A stretch of 64,000 bases of DNA, taken from positions 868,001-932,000 of the forward strand of contig NC_014166.1 of NCBI RefSeq assembly GCF_000092245.1. Reading direction: 5' to 3'. Both the position numbers and the translations under genes were made by a program. The notes below the pieces were generated by a model that was not told the DNA's origin, made no database searches, and saw nothing but the letters and a program-made list of their open reading frames with translations. This DNA is from Arcobacter nitrofigilis DSM 7299 (GTDB lineage: Bacteria; Campylobacterota; Campylobacteria; Campylobacterales; Arcobacteraceae). Position 1 is the first letter of the stretch; each line of letters opens with the position of its first letter. Shown piece after piece: positions 15,930-35,931 of the stretch.

Positions 15930-15958
15930 ATCAATATTTATCTTAAAAGGAAATGCTT

Positions 15959-16690
15959 TTGTTTGCTAAAAATGGTATACCATTATATCTTCAACTAAAA
16001 GAGAAACTATTAGAAGATATTAAATTAAATTACAAAGCTGATGATATTATACCAGCTGAGGGCAAACTTGAAGAGAAATATCAAGTAAGTAGAATAACTG
16101 TAAGAAAAGCTATTGAAGAGTTAGAGCGAGAAAATGTAGTTATTAAAAAGCAAGGTAAAGGAACTTTTGTACAAGAAAAGAAAGTCCTTTATGATGCAAA
16201 TTCTATTGGGTCTTTAACCCAAAGATTAGAAAAACAAAAACACCTTCTAACTACAAAGTCTATATCTTTTGAAATAATAGAAGAGGGTGAAGAGCACTTT
16301 GTAAAAGATATGTTAAATTGTGAAAAACTATTATGCATTAGAAGAACTAGATTGTTAAATGAAGTTCCTTTTGCATTGATGATAAACTATTTTGATGTAA
16401 ATACTGTACCTGATATTGAGAAAAAGCTAAATCTTGAATCATTGTATGCCTTTTTAAAAGAAGAGTATAATATTGAATTTTATAACGCAGAAGAGATAGT
16501 AGAAGCAAAAGCTGCAAATAAAGATGAAGCTAAAAGATTAAATGTAAAAGAAGGTTTTCCTTTATTGTCTTTAAAAAGACTCTCATATGATAGAAGTAAC
16601 AAGCCAATAGAGTATTCAAATTTGGTTATCAAATCAGATATGTACAAACACAAGATAATTTTATCAAATGATAAAATGTCAAATATATAA
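15959..16690 (+). CDS. GntR-family transcriptional regulator, HutC type (first of tandem pair)
   Basis: Cytoplasmic DNA-binding regulator: N-terminal winged helix-turn-helix of the GntR family (about 5-70, with VSRITVRKAI as recognition region) and a C-terminal UTRA effector domain (about 95-238), which defines the HutC subfamily. The frame is open from ATG 15953, but AAAAGG ends only two bases before that ATG. TTG 15959 sits eight bases after AAAAGG, and the paralogue begins with the same TTG and residues (FAKNGIP), so TTG is preferred. The effector is likely a glycerol-pathway metabolite by context. Adjacent to glpD and 17 bases before its paralogue. Confidence 0.85.
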   Translation: MFAKNGIPLYLQLKEKLLEDIKLNYKADDIIPAEGKLEEKYQVSRITVRKAIEELERENVVIKKQGKGTFVQEKKVLYDANSIGSLTQRLEKQKHLLTTKSISFEIIEEGEEHFVKDMLNCEKLLCIRRTRLLNEVPFALMINYFDVNTVPDIEKKLNLESLYAFLKEEYNIEFYNAEEIVEAKAANKDEAKRLNVKEGFPLLSLKRLSYDRSNKPIEYSNLVIKSDMYKHKIILSNDKMSNI

Positions 16691-16707: not shown

Positions 16708-17433
16708 TTGTTTGCTAAAAATGGTATTCCCTTATATATACAATTAAAGAAAAAATTATTAAAAGATATTCAAGACAATTATAAACCTGGAGATTTATTA
16801 TCTCCTGAAGTAAAGCTAGAAAAAGAGTATGAAGTAAGTAGAATAACTATAAGAAAAGCTATTGAATTACTTGAAAGAGATAATGTCTTAGAACGAAAAC
16901 AAGGTTCAGGAACATATATAAAAGAACAAAAAATCCTTTATGATGCAAATTCAATTGGCTCACTAACTCAAAGATTAAATAAACAAAATCATAAACTTAC
17001 TACTAAATCAATTGAATTTGAAGTTATTAAAAAAGAGCATTATGTAAAAGAGTTATTAAAATGTGATACTCTGTTGTGCATAAAAAGATTTAGAGAGATG
17101 GATGGAATACCTTTTGCTTTGATGTTAAATTATTTGGATTTTGATAAAGTTCCAAATTTAAAGAAAAAGTTTAATATAGAGTCTTTATATACTTTCTTAA
17201 AAGATGAATACAATATAGAATTTTTTAATGCTCAAGAGACAGTGGAAGCAAAAGACTCTACAAAAGAAGAAGCGCAAAAGTTAGGTATAAAAGAGGGCTC
17301 TGCACTTTTATCTTTGCATAGATTATCTTTTGACAAAGATAATAATCCTGTGGAATATTCAGACATCTTAATCAAAGCAAATATGTATAAACATAAAATA
17401 ACACTCTCAAATGATAAAATCTCAAATTATTAA
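16708..17433 (+). CDS. GntR-family transcriptional regulator, HutC type (second of tandem pair)
   Basis: Close paralogue of the preceding gene (more than half of residues identical by eye), with the same winged helix-turn-helix (VSRITIRKAI) and UTRA domain and nearly the same length (241 residues). It starts at TTG, eight bases after AAAGGA; no ATG is available in frame at the N-terminus. The two genes clearly arose by duplication. They may form heterodimers, read different metabolites, or divide control of the glpS, glpD and aldehyde dehydrogenase promoters; sequence alone does not say. Confidence 0.84.
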   Translation: MFAKNGIPLYIQLKKKLLKDIQDNYKPGDLLSPEVKLEKEYEVSRITIRKAIELLERDNVLERKQGSGTYIKEQKILYDANSIGSLTQRLNKQNHKLTTKSIEFEVIKKEHYVKELLKCDTLLCIKRFREMDGIPFALMLNYLDFDKVPNLKKKFNIESLYTFLKDEYNIEFFNAQETVEAKDSTKEEAQKLGIKEGSALLSLHRLSFDKDNNPVEYSDILIKANMYKHKITLSNDKISNY

Positions 17434-22393: not shown

Positions 22394-24363
22394 CAGAGTT
22401 TAAAGTTGAAAGTAAATATAGCCCAGCTGGAGATCAACCCCAAGCAATAGAAAAATTAAGTGAATCAATACTTGCAGGTAATCAATATAATACACTGCTT
22501 GGAGTAACAGGTTCAGGTAAAACTTATACTATGGCAAAAGTTATTGAGAAAACTCAAAAACCAACTTTAATAATGACTCATAATAAAACTTTGGCTGCCC
22601 AACTATACAGTGAATTTAAATCTTTTTTCCCTAACAATCATGTGGAATATTTTATCTCTTATTATGATTATTATCAACCAGAAGCTTATATTCCAAGAAG
22701 TGATTTGTTTATAGAAAAAGACAGTTCTATAAACTCAGAACTTGAAAGAATGAGATTAAGTGCAACAGCTTCTTTACTCTCTTTTGATGATGTTATTGTA
22801 GTAGCTTCTGTCTCTGCAAACTATGGTTTAGGAAATCCTGCTGAATATAAATCTATGGTACAAAAACTATCTGTGGGATTTGAATACTCACAACGTACGC
22901 TTTTAATGAAACTTGTGGACATGGGTTATAAAAGAAATGACAAGTTTTTTGACCGAGCTGATTTTAGAGTAAACGGGGATGTTATTGATGTCTTTCCTGC
23001 TTATTGGCAAGATGAATTTATTCGCATAGAGTTTTTTGCAGATGAAGTTGAATCAATTTCTATTCATGAATACATGACTAATGTAAAACAAAAAGATGTA
23101 CAAGATGTAACTATTTATTCTGTAAATCCTTTTGTTGTAAATAGTGAAAACCTAGCAACAGCTGTAAAAAAAATTGAAGAAGAGTTAGAAGATAGATTGG
23201 CCTTTTTAAAGGCTGAAGATAGACTTGTAGAGTATCAAAGACTAAAACAGAGAGTAGAGTTCGATTTAGAGATGATTGAAGGTACTGGTATGTGTAAAGG
23301 AATAGAAAACTATGCTCGACACTTGACAGGACTTGAACCTGGTGAAACACCTTACTCTATGATGGATTATTTTGAACAAATAGGAAAAGACTTTTTACTT
23401 ATAGTTGATGAATCTCACGTATCATTACCCCAATTTAGAGGAATGCACGCCGCAGATAAAAGTAGAAAAGAAGTTCTTGTTGAGTATGGATTTAGATTAC
23501 CAAGTGCTTTAGATAACCGTCCTTTGATGTTTGATGAATTTATCAATAAAGCCCCACATTATCTGTTTGTAAGTGCAACACCAAATGAACTAGAAACTTC
23601 AATGAGTTCAGTTGTAGCTGAGCAAATTATTAGACCAACTGGATTGTTAGACCCAACTATTGAGATTATGGATAGTGAATTTCAAGTTGAAAAATTACAT
23701 GATGAAATCAAAAAAGTTGCTGCAAAAAATGAGCGGGTTTTAGTTACAGTTTTAACTAAAAAAATGGCAGAAGAACTAACAGCATATTATTTAGACTTAG
23801 GTATAAGAGTAAAATATATGCATAGTGAGATAGATACTTTGGAACGAGTAGAAATCATTCGTCAATTGCGATTGGGTGAATTCGATGTTCTAGTTGGAAT
23901 CAATCTTTTAAGGGAAGGTTTAGATATCCCAGAAACTTCTTTGGTAGCTATTTTGGATGCAGATAAAGAAGGATTTTTAAGAAGTAAAACTTCTCTTATC
24001 CAAACAATGGGAAGAGGGGCAAGAAATCAAAATGGACGGGTTATTTTATTTGCTAAAAGAGTAACTGATTCTATGCAGTTTGCCATAGATGTGACAAATA
24101 AAAGAAGAGAAGTTCAAGAAGCACACAATAAAAAGCATGGCATCACACCAACTAGTACCACAAGAGTATTAGAAGATAACCTAAAACTTGAAGAGTACGA
24201 TGCTGTAGCCTTGAAGTTAGAGAAGTTAGACAAAATGCCAGCAGCTGAGAGAAAGAAGATGCTCATAGAGCTAAATAAGGCGATGACAAAAGCTTCAAAA
24301 GACTTGAACTTCGAAGAAGCGATAAGGCTCCGTGACGAAATAGAAAAAATCAAAAAATTGTAA
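22390..24363 (+). CDS. uvrB: Excinuclease ABC subunit B, apparently starting at ATA
   Basis: DNA helicase-like damage-verification subunit of nucleotide excision repair, loaded by UvrA and cut partner of UvrC. From ATG 22531 the protein would lack its N-terminus; the sequence upstream encodes [19 protein letters not shown] and then Walker A GVTGSGKT, which are essential. The frame is closed by TAA at 22384-22386, leaving only ATA 22390 as a sensible start, six bases after AAGGA. From there it is 657 residues, the normal UvrB length. The beta-hairpin region ([12 protein letters not shown]), helicase motifs (DESHVS, SATP, GRGARN) and the C-terminal UVR domain are intact. The ATA overlaps the stop of the gene before (ATAG). 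Confidence 0.93.
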
Positions 24364-24496
24364 ATAGAGGTTCATCTTTTGTCCAAACTCTGCGTTGGAT
24401 AGGAATTCTTAATGCTCACGTACTTTAGTACGCTCCGCATAAAAATTTCTCTCCGCCTTGATTTTAAACAAAATCTAAATCTCTATTTACAATTTT
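24354..24496. repeat. 143-base palindromic element between convergent genes
   Basis: Perfect 16-base ends AAAATTGTAAATAGAG (24354-24369) and its reverse complement (24481-24496) enclose arms that stay similar when folded, meeting at CGTACT-TT-AGTACG (24419-24432). The interior is richer in G and C than its surroundings. The left end includes the last residues and stop codon of uvrB. It can form one long hairpin and lies between the convergent uvrB and signal-peptidase-like genes. It resembles a REP- or MITE-like dispersed element, possibly doing duty as terminator. No coding frame. Confidence 0.7.
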
Positions 24497-24518
24497 GCTT
24501 TAAGTAATTTTATAATTA

Positions 24519-25433
24519 TTATTCTAGTTTTATTCCTATTCTATTTGTATTCTCATAATTTGAATAAATTATTTTTGCATTGCCATAGATTAATCTTTGC
24601 GGAACTGTTCCCCAAAATCTCGAATCATTTGAGTGGTCTCTATTATCACCCATCATAAAATATTGATTCTCTGGAACTTTTATTGGAGACATGTTAAATA
24701 GTTGTTGTGGATTAAGTCCATTATCTGTTACACTTGGGTCATTGTGAATACCAGGATGATCTTTTCTATATGGATTTTTTATCCAAAGTTTTCCATCAAA
24801 TTCTGATATTTGTGTTATTGGGTAATTTTTCTTAACATACTCATTACCTTCATGTGGGTGTAGATATAATACTTTATTTTGAAGAGCAACAATATCTCCA
24901 CCAACTGCAACACATCTTTTTACATAATAAACTGTCTCTTCATTTGGATATCTAAATACAACAATATCTCCACGTTTTACAAAATCATAACTTCTTGTAG
25001 CAAGAATAGTGTCATTTCTTATAATAGTTTTTGCCATTGAATTAGCAGGTACACTAAATAGCTTTACTGGTGTATCCAATTTTAATAACATTATTAAGGT
25101 AAATACAATTAAATAATAAACAATAACAAATAATAAGATATATGGTGATGTACTATATTTAGAATTGTTAATATTTTTTTGTTTTTTTATAATTATAATC
25201 GGCTCAATAAATGAGTATAAAAATATTAAAATAAGAAGACTTTCTACAATAATAAATAAATAAAAATTAAAATAAATTAATGCTATATATAAAGAAAGAA
25301 AATGTATGACTAAGAATAAAGGAAAGATAGTGATAGCTTTTTTTATTCGGCCAATATACAAATGACCAGCTCCCATTGCAATTAAATTAAAAATTAGTAA
25401 TTTTAAAATACTCTTTTTTTGAATTTCTTTCAT
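24519..25433 (-). CDS. Signal peptidase I family protein with multi-helix membrane N-terminus
   Basis: 304 residues. The first about 125 residues form several membrane helices, starting with a GAGHLYIGR segment as in TM2-like proteins. The rest is an S26 signal peptidase domain with the catalytic serine in PANSMAKT (about S133), the catalytic lysine in YVKRCVAVGGD (about K169) and the GDNRDHSNDSR box. From RGDIVVFRYP to RFWGTV it is almost identical (three differences by eye) to LepB encoded at 35146, and the DNA is about 95% identical over 376 bases, whereas flanks are unrelated. It is probably an active peptidase of unknown specificity. It faces uvrB across a palindromic element. Confidence 0.85.
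   Translation of the reverse strand: MKEIQKKSILKLLIFNLIAMGAGHLYIGRIKKAITIFPLFLVIHFLSLYIALIYFNFYLFIIVESLLILIFLYSFIEPIIIIKKQKNINNSKYSTSPYILLFVIVYYLIVFTLIMLLKLDTPVKLFSVPANSMAKTIIRNDTILATRSYDFVKRGDIVVFRYPNEETVYYVKRCVAVGGDIVALQNKVLYLHPHEGNEYVKKNYPITQISEFDGKLWIKNPYRKDHPGIHNDPSVTDNGLNPQQLFNMSPIKVPENQYFMMGDNRDHSNDSRFWGTVPQRLIYGNAKIIYSNYENTNRIGIKLE
24603..24978 (-). repeat. 376-base segment duplicated in lepB (copy A)
   Basis: Matches 35305-35680 with no gaps and about 19 base differences by my count, mostly silent. Both lie in the same orientation within signal peptidase genes. Identity ends abruptly on both sides, which points to gene conversion. Confidence 0.85.
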
Positions 25434-25493
25434 TTGTATCCTTGAAATTAAATAGTCACTAAAATATTATCAATAAAGTACTTAATATATAAA

Positions 25494-25817
25494 TTATCCT
25501 ATTAACCTCTGAAACAAAATATCTTCTAAATTTTGTCTTGAATCAACTACTAACAAAATATAAACTATTTGATTCTCTATTTTATAAATGATTCGCCATC
25601 GTTTGTGAATAACTTCTCTGTATTTTGAGATACCAATTTCACTAAGTTCTGGTACTACTCTGTTTCTTTCAGGAAAATAGTGGAGTTTATTACACTCTTC
25701 TTTTATTTCAAAGAATATTTTTTTTGCTGTATTTACACTATCTGTTTTGATATATTCTATTATGTTTAAAAGGTCGTTTTGGGCGATTTCCGTCCATTGT
25801 ACTTCGTAGTTCTTCAT
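25494..25817 (-). CDS. RelE/ParE-family toxin
   Basis: A 107-residue protein of the ParE/RelE fold: WTEIAQNDLLNIIEYI at the start, FPERNRVVPEL in the middle, and the family's YREVIHKRWRIIYKI and VDSRQNLEDIL near the end. Members either poison DNA gyrase (ParE) or cleave mRNA on ribosomes (RelE); DIL-type ends and the antitoxin type favour a ParE/RelE plasmid-stabilisation group without deciding between them. The start codon directly follows the antitoxin stop, so the pair is co-translated. Confidence 0.85.
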   Translation of the reverse strand: MKNYEVQWTEIAQNDLLNIIEYIKTDSVNTAKKIFFEIKEECNKLHYFPERNRVVPELSEIGISKYREVIHKRWRIIYKIENQIVYILLVVDSRQNLEDILFQRLIG

Positions 25818-26090
25818 TTAGTTGAATAGTTTATTTTCTAAATTGTTAAACATTTCATCTTGTTTTAGTAGGTTTTTGTTTTCTATGTCTTTTTCACTTA
25901 GAATTATTAGTTTTAACAAGTTGATTGAATTTTGCATATTTTCATAGCTTTTTATATCTTGCACTACAGCTTTTGCTTCGCCATTTTGCGTAATTATAAC
26001 AGTTCTTTTATTTTCATTGACGCCATTGATTACATCAGCTGTTTTAGATTTTAGAAAACTTATTGGTTTTATATCTTGACTTAAATACAT
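25818..26090 (-). CDS. Phd/YefM-family antitoxin
   Basis: A 90-residue antitoxin: the N-terminal DNA-binding part (IKPISFLKSKTADVINGV, then RTVIITQNGEAKAVVQDI) is the Phd/YefM fold, and the charged C-terminus would wrap the toxin. First gene of the two-gene module; it would neutralise the toxin and repress the operon. A 16-base palindrome at 26144-26159 in its upstream region is a candidate operator. Confidence 0.86.
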   Translation of the reverse strand: MYLSQDIKPISFLKSKTADVINGVNENKRTVIITQNGEAKAVVQDIKSYENMQNSINLLKLIILSEKDIENKNLLKQDEMFNNLENKLFN

Positions 26091-27801: not shown

Positions 27802-28379
27802 TATTGAAAAAGTCTATATGTCTGTTAAGTATTGTTGCTTCAACAGTTTTATTAGGGAATGAAGTTGAAGTACCAACAGTAAATGTTGCGGAAAAGATAA
27901 ACACAAAAGTAGTTAAAGATATAAGTGAAGATCAACTGAAATCAGCGGATTTAGCGGAAGCTTTAAGTAAAAATGTACCTTCAATATCAATTGTAAGAAG
28001 AAATGGGATTGCAAATGATATTATTTTGAGAGGACAAAAGAAAGATAATATCAATGTATTAATAGATGATGCAAAGATATATGGAGCTTGTCCAAATAGA
28101 ATGGATCCAGTAACATCACATATATTAACAAATAATGTAGAAAGTGTAGAAGTAATAGAAGGACCATACGATGTTGAGAACTTTGGAACATTAAGTGGGA
28201 AAGTTCAAGTACATACAAAAGAGCCAACAAAAGATTTACATGGAGAAGTTAATTTAAATGCTGGAAGCTTCAATTATAGAAAAGCAAGTGCAACAATAAG
28301 TGGAGGAACAGATAGATTTAAATTATTACTTTCAGCTTCAACTGAAAAAAGTGATCAATATAAAGATGGAAATGGTAAT
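27784..28379 (+). repeat. 596-base direct repeat, copy 1 (5' part of first copper receptor gene)
   Basis: Matches 29787-30382 with two base differences by my count. It runs from 20 bases before the start codon through signal peptide, plug domain and first barrel strands. Beyond it the two genes drop to ordinary paralogue similarity. Confidence 0.92.
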
Positions 28380-29786
28380 GACTTTTATGAACAGCAAGTT
28401 GAAAATGGAATAGCAGCTAAGTCAGATAGAGAGTATTCAAAAGATAATCAAAACCACGAAGCATATACTAAAAAAACACTTCTCTCAAAAGCTATTTTTA
28501 ATATAGATGATAGTTCAGAAGTAAAACTTTCATATACAGCAAACAGAAGTGATAATGTACTATATCCTAATACTCCAATGGATGCTGATTACGATGATTC
28601 AAATATTTATACTCTTGGATATGCAAAAAGAGATTTAGGTAAGTATTCAAAAGAGCTAAATTTAGATTATTATTACTCAGATGTTGACCATCCTATGAGT
28701 ACAAAACTAAGAGATGCTGGAAAAATGATGTATATGACAAATCATATGAAATCATCTATTTGGGGAACAAAACTAAAAAACAGTATGGAACTTTCTGATT
28801 ATTTAGTTACTCTTGGTTTAGATACTAGTGTTAGAAATTGGAGAGGTGAAAGTCATATGACATCAGTTGCAACTGGTGTTGATTCAGCTTTTAATACAAC
28901 ATTAGCATCAACAGATACTACAAATAAAGCAATTTTTGCAAAAGTTGAAAAAAATATTGGAAAATTAGATTTAGAATTTGGTTCTAGATATGACCATACA
29001 AAAATTGATGCGGATTCTAGTGCTAAAACAGATAGAAACTATAATGCCTTAAGTGCAAATGTTTTTGCTACGTATAATGCTGATAAAAGTACTAAATATT
29101 TTGCAGGAATAGGTAAATCTTCAAGAGTTCCTGATGCAAGAGAGCTTTATTATGGAAATACTAATAATGATTTAGAACAAACAAAAAACTATGAAGCTGA
29201 TCTTGGTTTTGAAAAGACTATTGGAAACTTCAATATAAAAACAAAACTATTTTATTCAGTGCTAAAAGATTATATTTATAACAAAACTACAAGTCCTACA
29301 ACTACAAAATTTGAAAATATTGATGCAAAAATTTATGGTATAGAAATTAGTGGATTTTATTATATGAGTGATTTCTTATCTTTAGATTATGGTATGGCAT
29401 ATCAAAGAGGGCAAAAGGATAAAGCACTTGAGGGACAAAGTGATAAAGATTTAGCAGAAATAACACCATTGAAAGCAAATCTTGCATTAAACTATGAGTA
29501 CTCAATACATAAATTGACAGCTGAAATGGTTGCAGTTGATAATTGGAATCACAATGATAGTGATAATGGAGAACAAAAGTTAGGTGGATATGCTATTTTT
29601 AATTTAAAGTATAAAAATAACATAACTAAAAACTTTGAAATAACAGTAGGTGTTGATAATGTATTTGACAAAACTTATGCTTCAACAAATACTTATAATG
29701 ATATCAAATATGTTGGAAATGGTAAAACAGAACTTTTAAATGATCCAGGAAGATATGGATATATTAATTTAAGATATAAATTCTAA
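27804..29786 (+). CDS. TonB-dependent copper receptor, OprC/NosA type (first of tandem pair)
   Basis: Outer-membrane 22-strand receptor, 660 residues. Signal peptide 1-18, a possible TonB box near 22-28, plug domain to about 150, then the barrel ending in aromatic F (INLRYKF). The plug contains ACPNRMDP with C96 and M100, the C-x3-M copper site of OprC, and the barrel has DHPM with H296 and M298, matching the second half (HxM) of that site. This identifies a copper importer of the OprC/NosA family rather than a siderophore receptor. TTG start after GGAGAGAG. The copper likely serves oxidases or nitrous oxide reductase encoded elsewhere; no partner inner-membrane transporter is nearby. Confidence 0.88.
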   Translation: MKKSICLLSIVASTVLLGNEVEVPTVNVAEKINTKVVKDISEDQLKSADLAEALSKNVPSISIVRRNGIANDIILRGQKKDNINVLIDDAKIYGACPNRMDPVTSHILTNNVESVEVIEGPYDVENFGTLSGKVQVHTKEPTKDLHGEVNLNAGSFNYRKASATISGGTDRFKLLLSASTEKSDQYKDGNGNDFYEQQVENGIAAKSDREYSKDNQNHEAYTKKTLLSKAIFNIDDSSEVKLSYTANRSDNVLYPNTPMDADYDDSNIYTLGYAKRDLGKYSKELNLDYYYSDVDHPMSTKLRDAGKMMYMTNHMKSSIWGTKLKNSMELSDYLVTLGLDTSVRNWRGESHMTSVATGVDSAFNTTLASTDTTNKAIFAKVEKNIGKLDLEFGSRYDHTKIDADSSAKTDRNYNALSANVFATYNADKSTKYFAGIGKSSRVPDARELYYGNTNNDLEQTKNYEADLGFEKTIGNFNIKTKLFYSVLKDYIYNKTTSPTTTKFENIDAKIYGIEISGFYYMSDFLSLDYGMAYQRGQKDKALEGQSDKDLAEITPLKANLALNYEYSIHKLTAEMVAVDNWNHNDSDNGEQKLGGYAIFNLKYKNNITKNFEITVGVDNVFDKTYASTNTYNDIKYVGNGKTELLNDPGRYGYINLRYKF

Positions 29787-30382
29787 TAAAATAAAAGGAG
29801 AGAGTATTGAAAAAGTCTATATGTCTGTTAAGTATTGTTGCTTCAACAGTTTTGTTAGGGAATGAAGTTGAAGTACCAACAGTAAATGTTGCGGAAAAGA
29901 TAAACACAAAAGTAGTTAAAGATATAAGTGAAGATCAACTAAAATCAGCGGATTTAGCGGAAGCTTTAAGTAAAAATGTACCTTCAATATCAATTGTAAG
30001 AAGAAATGGGATTGCAAATGATATTATTTTGAGAGGACAAAAGAAAGATAATATCAATGTATTAATAGATGATGCAAAGATATATGGAGCTTGTCCAAAT
30101 AGAATGGATCCAGTAACATCACATATATTAACAAATAATGTAGAAAGTGTAGAAGTAATAGAAGGACCATACGATGTTGAGAACTTTGGAACATTAAGTG
30201 GGAAAGTTCAAGTACATACAAAAGAGCCAACAAAAGATTTACATGGAGAAGTTAATTTAAATGCTGGAAGCTTCAATTATAGAAAAGCAAGTGCAACAAT
30301 AAGTGGAGGAACAGATAGATTTAAATTATTACTTTCAGCTTCAACTGAAAAAAGTGATCAATATAAAGATGGAAATGGTAAT
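29787..30382 (+). repeat. 596-base direct repeat, copy 2 (5' part of second copper receptor gene)
   Basis: Second copy of the segment at 27784-28379, 2003 bases downstream in the same orientation; it includes the ribosome site, start codon, signal peptide and plug. Confidence 0.92.
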
Positions 30383-31780
30383 AATTTTTACGAACAGCAA
30401 GTTGAAAAAGGTGTTTCTTCTACAACACGTTATAAAGATTCTAATGAAAAAGCATATACTAAAAAAACACTCTTATCTAAACTAATTTTTAATATAGATG
30501 ATAGTTCAGAAGTAAAATTATCATATACTGCAAATAGAAGTGATAATGTATTATATCCAGCTGGTGGAATGGATGCTGATTATGATGATTCAAATATCTA
30601 TACTATCGGGTATACAAAAAGAGATTTAGGTAAGTATTCAAAAGAGTTGAATTTAGATTATTATTACTCAGATGTAGATCATCCTATGAGTACAAAATTA
30701 AGAAATCCTACTATGATGTATATGACAAGTCATATGAAAACATCAATTTGGGGAACAAAATTAAAAAATAGTATGGAACTTGCTGATTCAATTTTAACAG
30801 TTGGATTAGATACAAGTGTTAGAAACTGGAGAAGTAATAATTATCAAACATCAATTACAACAGGGAAGATTACACCAACTGCTGATTCTTTTCCATCAAC
30901 AGATACTACAAATAAAGCAATATTCGCAAAATTAGAGAAAGATTTTGGTAAATTAAATTTAGATTTTGGTTCAAGATATGACCATACAAATATTGAGCCA
31001 GATGGTAATACAAAAAATGAAAGAAAATACAATGCACTAAGTGCAAATGTTTTTGCTGTTTATAATCAAGATGAATTTACTAAGTATTTTGCAGGAATTG
31101 GTAAATCTTCTAGAGTTCCTGATGCAAGAGAACTTTATTTTTCAGGAATGGGTTCAAAAGGGAATCAAGATTTAAAACAAACAAAAAACTATGAAGCTGA
31201 TCTTGGTTTTGAAAAAACAATAGGTAATTTTAATATTAAATCAAAACTTTTTTATTCTGTATTAAAAGATTATATTTATAACAATGCAACAAGTAAAAAG
31301 TTTGAAAATGTTGATGCTAAGATTTATGGTGCAGAAATAAGTGGATTCTATTTATTAGGAGATTCATTTTCAGCAGATTATGGAATTGCTTATCAAAGAG
31401 GAAAAAAAGATAAAGCACTAGATGGTCAAACAAATAAAAACTTAGCTGAAATTCCTCCTTTAAAAGCTAATATAGCTTTAAATTATGAGTATTCAATTCA
31501 TAAACTAACAGCAGAAATGGTAGCTGTTGATAACTGGAATAAAATTGATAGTGATAATGGTGAACAGAAGTTAGGCGGATATGCTCTTTTTAATTTAAAA
31601 TATAAAAATAGCATAAGCAAAAATTTTGAAATAACTTTAGGTGTTGATAATGTATTTGATAAAACTTATGCTTCAACAAATACTTATAAAGATATTTCAT
31701 ATACAGTTATAGGTGGAAATCAAATTACTTTTAATGATCCAGGAAGATATGGATATATAAATTTAAGATATAAATTTTAA
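29807..31780 (+). CDS. TonB-dependent copper receptor, OprC/NosA type (second of tandem pair)
   Basis: Tandem paralogue of the previous gene, 657 residues, 20 bases after it and with the same GGAGAGAG-TATTG start. Residues 1-191 are identical to its neighbour, so signal peptide, TonB contact and plug with C96/M100 are the same; the barrel diverges, chiefly in loops (after about 200, around 330-350, 450-460), while the H-x-M copper ligands DHPM (H292/M294) are kept. The two probably take up the same metal, possibly in different ligand complexes or with different exposure to phage and antibodies. Ends with a strong bidirectional terminator. Confidence 0.88.
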   Translation: MKKSICLLSIVASTVLLGNEVEVPTVNVAEKINTKVVKDISEDQLKSADLAEALSKNVPSISIVRRNGIANDIILRGQKKDNINVLIDDAKIYGACPNRMDPVTSHILTNNVESVEVIEGPYDVENFGTLSGKVQVHTKEPTKDLHGEVNLNAGSFNYRKASATISGGTDRFKLLLSASTEKSDQYKDGNGNNFYEQQVEKGVSSTTRYKDSNEKAYTKKTLLSKLIFNIDDSSEVKLSYTANRSDNVLYPAGGMDADYDDSNIYTIGYTKRDLGKYSKELNLDYYYSDVDHPMSTKLRNPTMMYMTSHMKTSIWGTKLKNSMELADSILTVGLDTSVRNWRSNNYQTSITTGKITPTADSFPSTDTTNKAIFAKLEKDFGKLNLDFGSRYDHTNIEPDGNTKNERKYNALSANVFAVYNQDEFTKYFAGIGKSSRVPDARELYFSGMGSKGNQDLKQTKNYEADLGFEKTIGNFNIKSKLFYSVLKDYIYNNATSKKFENVDAKIYGAEISGFYLLGDSFSADYGIAYQRGKKDKALDGQTNKNLAEIPPLKANIALNYEYSIHKLTAEMVAVDNWNKIDSDNGEQKLGGYALFNLKYKNSISKNFEITLGVDNVFDKTYASTNTYKDISYTVIGGNQITFNDPGRYGYINLRYKF

Positions 31781-35145: not shown

Positions 35146-35931
35146 TTAGTAAATTCCTTTTTCGTGATTGATTTTGATTTCTTTGCCTTCCATATCTTTT
35201 TCTATACTTCCAACTGTTCTAAAAACTCTATTCCATCTAACTTCTTTATTTTTGTCCCATGAAAAATAGATAAACCAAGGAGTTCCTACTATATATTTAT
35301 ACTTAACTGTTCCCCAAAATCTCGAATCATTTGAGTGGTCTCTATTGTCACCCATCATAAAGTATTGATTTTCTGGAACTTTAATAGGAGACATATTAAA
35401 TAGTTGTTGTGGATTAAATCCATTATCTGTAACACTTGGGTCATTGTGAATACCAGGATGATCTTTTCTATATGGATTTTTTATCCAAAGTTTTCCATCA
35501 AATTCTGATATTTGTGTAATTGGATAGTTTTTCTTAACATATTCATTACCTTCATGTGGATGTAAATATAATACTTTGTCTTGAAGAGCAACTATATCTC
35601 CACCAACAGCAACACATCTTTTTACATAATGAACTGTCTCTTCATTTGGATATCTAAATACAACAATATCTCCACGTTTTGGACCATCACCTGTAATTAA
35701 GTGTCCATTATCATGAAACTCTGGAAGTACTTTTACCTCTAGCCAAGGAATTCTTGGAGTTGGAATACCATATGAAAACTTTTTCACAAAAAGCATATCA
35801 CCAATAAGAAGTGTATTTTTCATACTACCACTTGGGATTACAAAGGCTTGTGCAACAAAAAATATGATACTTAAAACAATTACAATTGTACCAGTCCAAG
35901 AACTAGACCATTTATATATTTTTTTTAACAT
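35146..35931 (-). CDS. lepB: Signal peptidase I
   Basis: Inner-membrane endopeptidase that removes signal peptides from Sec-exported proteins. The 261-residue protein has one N-terminal membrane helix (about 13-32), the catalytic serine in IPSGSM (about S36), the catalytic lysine in HYVKRCVAVGGD (about K109), and GDNRDHSNDSR (about 193-203). It sits between folD and rpiB with gaps of zero and one base, an arrangement that marks it as the housekeeping copy. Its central region (DNA 35305-35680) is shared almost exactly with the membrane-embedded relative at 24519. Confidence 0.95.
   Translation of the reverse strand: MLKKIYKWSSSWTGTIVIVLSIIFFVAQAFVIPSGSMKNTLLIGDMLFVKKFSYGIPTPRIPWLEVKVLPEFHDNGHLITGDGPKRGDIVVFRYPNEETVHYVKRCVAVGGDIVALQDKVLYLHPHEGNEYVKKNYPITQISEFDGKLWIKNPYRKDHPGIHNDPSVTDNGFNPQQLFNMSPIKVPENQYFMMGDNRDHSNDSRFWGTVKYKYIVGTPWFIYFSWDKNKEVRWNRVFRTVGSIEKDMEGKEIKINHEKGIY
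35305..35680 (-). repeat. 376-base segment duplicated in the second signal peptidase gene (copy B)
   Basis: Ungapped partner of 24603-24978 (about 19 differences). It covers the catalytic lysine and the conserved C-terminal boxes but not the catalytic serine region, which differs between the two genes. Confidence 0.85.

Follow-up and report, generated by a model that had tools for sequence, protein, structure and literature searches.

Partial conversion between paralogues is already known. In the release factors RF1 and RF2, phylogeny identified two independent cases of conversion between divergent paralogues, in a functional domain that both share and covering almost the whole of domain 3 (Ishikawa et al. 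2015, PMC4530459), and conversion of the tuf genes in Salmonella is a model system for non-reciprocal transfer between duplicates on one chromosome (PMC5485169). Here we analyze two signal peptidase genes, gene A and lepB (gene B), that lie in a 64,000-nucleotide stretch of DNA (the window; positions 868001-932000 of the single 3,192,235-bp chromosome) of Arcobacter nitrofigilis (G000). Gene A is a second S26 peptidase of this salt-marsh bacterium, and we consider it probable (about 0.8) that gene conversion, through homologous recombination with the resident lepB, has replaced its core, which spans the conserved boxes C to E, in register. The genome of the type strain, CI (DSM 7299), has been published (PMC3035288). 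As in the release factors, conversion would have been restricted to the functionally shared domain of divergent paralogues; unlike in that system, one paralogue is rare and patchily distributed, the pattern is found in four genomes, the direction appears to run from lepB to gene A, and the tract splits the catalytic dyad between two parents. The likeness to tuf would lie in non-reciprocal transfer between duplicate copies on the same chromosome, whereas close homology between gene A and lepB is limited to the core, which is why the tract is confined to it. It is the recurrence in one gene pair and the Ser/Lys active site with two parents that are of interest here. We found no report of signal peptidase gene conversion in the open-access literature, the limited coverage of which leaves such an absence unproven.

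The two genes match without gaps and in frame at 357 of 376 bp (94.9%), and the edges of the match are abrupt, with identity dropping to background a few bases past either end; the limits of the block lie at the KRGDIVVF codons of box C and, at the end of box E, the SRFWGTV codons. A search of the whole genome recovered copies in gene A and lepB only. We refer to the 124 codons of this block as the core and to the parts on either side as the head and the tail. The 19 differing sites include three amino-acid replacements (Y169/H101, N186/D118 and L240/F172, gene A first), giving a nonsynonymous divergence (dN) of 0.010 and a synonymous divergence (dS) of 0.252, and their clumping within the tract was not significant (p 0.12; identical stretches reach 86 bp at most). 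The block covers boxes C, D and E together with the general-base Lys (K172 in gene A, K104 in lepB), and the nucleophilic Ser (S132 and S36, respectively) lies outside. These data confirm the original prediction, which had described a gapless match of about 95% with mostly silent changes that includes the catalytic lysine and ends short of the catalytic serine. Its further claim that the rest of the two genes is unrelated holds for recognizable similarity, of which the flanks show none (z against shuffles 1.8 for the head and 1.0 for the tail), but not for family membership: Pfam S26 spans residues 107-290 of gene A, indicating that its flanks are distant S26 sequence and that the replacement was in register. 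The two genes thus show the mark of conversion between paralogues, a local block of high identity that extends to silent sites and has abrupt edges.

Gene A is laid out as a four-helix membrane head, a Ser box, the core and a short tail (Table 1). It belongs to Pfam S26 (E 6.9e-35) and passes the cut-off of 47 for TIGR02227, the bacterial type I signal peptidases (S26A), with 129.8 bits (E 8.5e-38). Its active-site residues, S132 in VPANSM (codon 25038-25040) and K172 in YVKR, align with S36 and K104 of lepB. Like E. coli LepB (family S26, PDB 1b12), it has a Ser/Lys dyad and boxes B-E; phmmer matched it to 1b12 with E 5e-17, and the best Foldseek matches of its model were E. coli signal peptidase structures. 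It differs from that enzyme in the four predicted membrane helices ahead of the Ser box, in the short tail, and in having no lepB-like stretch from the Ser box to box C, where lepB has approximately 28 residues that are missing from gene A. The AlphaFold model (7 sequences, mean predicted local distance difference test score 64.5) supports the S26 fold and is too weak for active-site geometry; it also contains four helices in the head, with low confidence in that part, and Pfam assigned the head to no confident family. The three amino-acid against 16 silent differences between the cores indicate purifying selection on both copies, which suggests that the product of gene A remains a working Ser/Lys peptidase in A. 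nitrofigilis.

Table 1. Coordinates of the features discussed (window positions unless a contig is named).
Feature	Position	Strand	Basis
Variable slot, uvrB hairpin to parE-like gene	24497..25489		BLAST blocks to G001/G002 end at 24496 and restart at 25490/25484
Gene A, second signal peptidase, 304 aa	24519..25433	-	Open reading frame; Pfam S26; TIGR02227
A-type tail, PQRLIYGNAKIIYSNYENTNRIGIKLE	24519..24602	-	Shuffle z against A-type tails
Putatively converted tract in gene A, boxes C-E with catalytic Lys	24603..24978	-	94.9% identity to 35305-35680; core tree
A-type head, four predicted membrane helices and Ser box VPANSM	24979..25433	-	Homologous only to heads of G376, G286 and G396
Gene B, lepB, housekeeping signal peptidase I, 261 aa, putative donor	35146..35931	-	TIGR02227; orthologues, gene order
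Putative donor tract in lepB	35305..35680	-	94.9% identity to 24603-24978
A-type genes without nucleophile Ser (Asn or His)	L150:6288-7259 and L162:3589-4569

The locus and the divergence of the cores point to the direction and date of the exchange. In the two congeners, G001 (the nearest) and G002, gene A is absent, and the content of its slot differs in all three species. The head was found in none of the other Arcobacteraceae genomes (104 searched, own included), the search giving two marginal, short matches that do not represent gene A (E 0.001-0.008). Since the slot holds other sequence in G001 and G002, the simplest reading is that A. nitrofigilis gained gene A. lepB (TIGR02227, E 5.1e-43) has orthologues in both congeners (95% and 82% identical), with which it is colinear, and the order folD-lepB-rpiB (rpiB named by Pfam) is conserved in all three. 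Because lepB and its folD and rpiB neighbors are conserved, whereas gene A is absent from the congeners and its slot variable, transfer from lepB to gene A is the most likely direction. The core dS between gene A and lepB (0.252, bootstrap 0.13-0.41) is smaller than that from G001 to lepB (0.477) or to gene A (0.399), the lepB value for G002 being 0.79; it fell below the first of these in 99.3% of codon resamples and below the second in 93%. The cores therefore parted after the split from G001, and their shared ancestor postdates that split, so that the transfer most likely does as well. Polarized by G001, nine of the 19 differences fall on the side of gene A, including all three amino-acid changes, nine on the side of lepB, and one is unclear. 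The lepB core nests with that of gene A first and G001 next, but its dS to G001 exceeds that of the lepB flanks (0.19 and 0.26), so some minor exchange back from gene A into lepB is possible.

A less likely alternative is that the hybrid was formed in an unsampled close relative and reached A. nitrofigilis by horizontal transfer, bringing with it the lepB core of that relative. The position of gene A in a variable slot, with no counterpart in the congeners, fits the arrival of a ready hybrid, and the two cores diverge at 5.1% of sites, close to the 4.9% for the lepB flanks between A. nitrofigilis and G001, as expected of a sister-species donor. However, no sampled species has a lepB closer to the core of gene A than the resident lepB is, and this route requires an extra, unseen donor.

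Two further observations concern the surroundings of the slot. The ParE/Phd-type toxin-antitoxin pair beside it (25494-26090) is conserved, unlike the slot content. The hairpin that follows uvrB (24355-24498; -41.1 kcal/mol, z -7.2) is found in both congeners, and some five diverged relatives of it are dispersed through the genome, with CTGCGTTG...ACT..AGT.GCTCC...CGCCTTGA in common; a search of Rfam gave no match to it.

Relatives of gene A (A-type genes) were identified by their heads in three other genomes, making four with A. nitrofigilis. G376 (E 7.5e-16) and G286 (E 3.3e-13) belong to one other family (f20) of the same order, in which a profile of the head found no further match among 44 genomes, and the profile also identified G396, in a third family (E 3.1e-8). 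The heads of the four group by gene, with shuffle z of 17-20 among those of A. nitrofigilis, G286 and G376, 8-12 to that of G396, and at most 2.8 between the A. nitrofigilis head and lepB. The tails of the first three group partly by gene (z 4.7-10.3 to each other), that of G286 being similar to lepB as well (z 12.3); in G396, the tail is like that of lepB (z 46). Plasmids contained no match to the head and viral contigs no orthologues of gene A, while a pattern search of 85,000 species genomes returned lepB-like or remote S26 matches only. The second peptidases of G032, G042 and G052 were rejected as A-type genes, having other heads and cores that form a clade of their own; that of G095 groups with the lepB of its genus and is not A-type either. 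In both G286 and G396 the A-type gene lies between lepB and rpiB and is followed by an M50-family gene, overlapping lepB by 11 bases in the former and about 3.2 kb from it in the latter, and in G376 it is 1.2 Mb from lepB and adjoins a Mutator-family transposase. A location next to lepB, perhaps the ancestral one, would favor exchange. The nucleophile position holds Asn in G376 and His in G396 (PSNNM and TSNHM) and the Lys box is kept; the products of these two genes may thus differ from ordinary peptidases.

The core was found to follow the lineage of its host and not the gene. Its length tracks the family, being 124 residues in gene A and in the lepB of Arcobacteraceae and 146 in the two A-type genes of f20 and in the lepB of that family. 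In the core tree, gene A pairs with its own lepB (100/89; bootstrap 99-100%), the cores of the G286 and G376 A-type genes fall within the lepB of their respective genera (100/98 and 100/94), and that of G396, once added, joins the lepB of its family (100/92). A single clade of A-type cores was rejected by the approximately unbiased test for three genes (p 4e-100) and for four (p 2e-10), as was holding together those of G286 and G376, which share a family (p 0.004). In G286, identity of the A-type core to its own lepB is 93-100% at the DNA level over roughly the final 140 bases, and the earlier parts are equally close to the lepB of other species in the genus. In G396, the A-type gene matches its own lepB in two parts (29 of 30 bases around PPHNTKQHFV, and approximately 80% DNA identity at the core end and tail) and lacks an insertion that this lepB has. 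Since the cores of the three relatives each resemble the lepB of their own lineage, conversion appears to be recurrent.

Several points nevertheless weigh against this reading. One genome per species was available, so clustering by genome or by gene was compared across genera. The A-type core of G376 is closer in DNA to the lepB of another species of its genus (74.7%) than to its own (70.5%), and that of G396 is nearest to the lepB of G075 rather than to its own. The run of 19 polymorphic sites that G286 shares with its own lepB has an uncorrected p of 0.004, which becomes weak after correction for six comparisons, and none of the four A-type genes displays a core of the A family as it would have been before conversion. 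The expectation that cores cluster by genome is thus upheld across genera and in the topology tests, but the own lepB is not the closest one in two of the four genomes, G376 and G396. The exchange in G376 is old, and those in G376 and G396 together are old or mosaic. Overall, there appears to have been repeated, partly old, mosaic exchange between A-type genes and lepB. The first reading of this block as conversion or domain replacement is supported, as cores follow lineage and heads follow gene, and the two terms describe one event here.

A rather improbable explanation of the same pattern is that copies of lepB exchanged their heads and tails for A-type ones independently, lineage by lineage. 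The outcome would be formally equivalent, and the overlap of the G286 gene with lepB is like that of a tandem duplicate; on the other hand, such fusions need in-register replacement at two ends as against one internal tract, gene A of A. nitrofigilis sits at a locus without lepB neighbors, and its tail matches A-type tails (z 10.3 to G286, 7.2 to G376) and not its own lepB (z 1.0). That selection on the catalytic region made the cores alike with no exchange at all has next to nothing in its favor beyond the conservation of boxes C-E across S26 peptidases, since the silent sites are alike too (dS 0.25 vs 0.79-0.84 to the lepB of a congener), the edges are abrupt, a non-catalytic loop is common to both genes, and the cores are placed by lineage.

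With conversion by the resident lepB as the preferred reading, gene A would be a second type I signal peptidase, rare and patchy in its distribution, in which non-reciprocal repair would have used lepB as donor, with boxes C and E, both conserved, as recombination anchors. The tract would span only boxes C to E because the lepB residues before box C are missing in gene A and the sequences are dissimilar past box E, and the anchoring at these two boxes would explain why it takes the Lys and spares the Ser. The product would carry a hybrid active site, with the Ser of gene A and the Lys of lepB, and such events would have occurred repeatedly in separate lineages rather than once. More speculatively, A-type genes could persist in new hosts by repeated renewal of the core from the resident lepB, keeping the enzyme part matched to the host, possibly under selection; we regard this as a tentative idea that is more probably wrong than right. 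The locus offers a clean, dated natural case in which a homology-limited tract swaps most of an enzyme active site and spares its nucleophile, with the same gene pair apparently converted in several lineages. In signal peptidase trees based on the core, such paralogues would wrongly appear as recent duplicates of lepB.

Other paired genes are present in the window. Those at 15953-16690 and 16708-17433 are similar tandem genes, GntR-type regulators by eye, with 73% DNA identity over 741 bp and no abrupt block. At 27804-29786 and 29807-31780 are tandem genes for TonB-dependent receptors, in which near-identity (dS 0.016) covers the ribosome-binding site and the initial ~190 codons and the remainder is diverged (dS 0.616). 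Each congener has one copy in this region, that of G001 matching the second gene, and the pair is a second, more recent partial conversion in the window, or a duplication with conversion.
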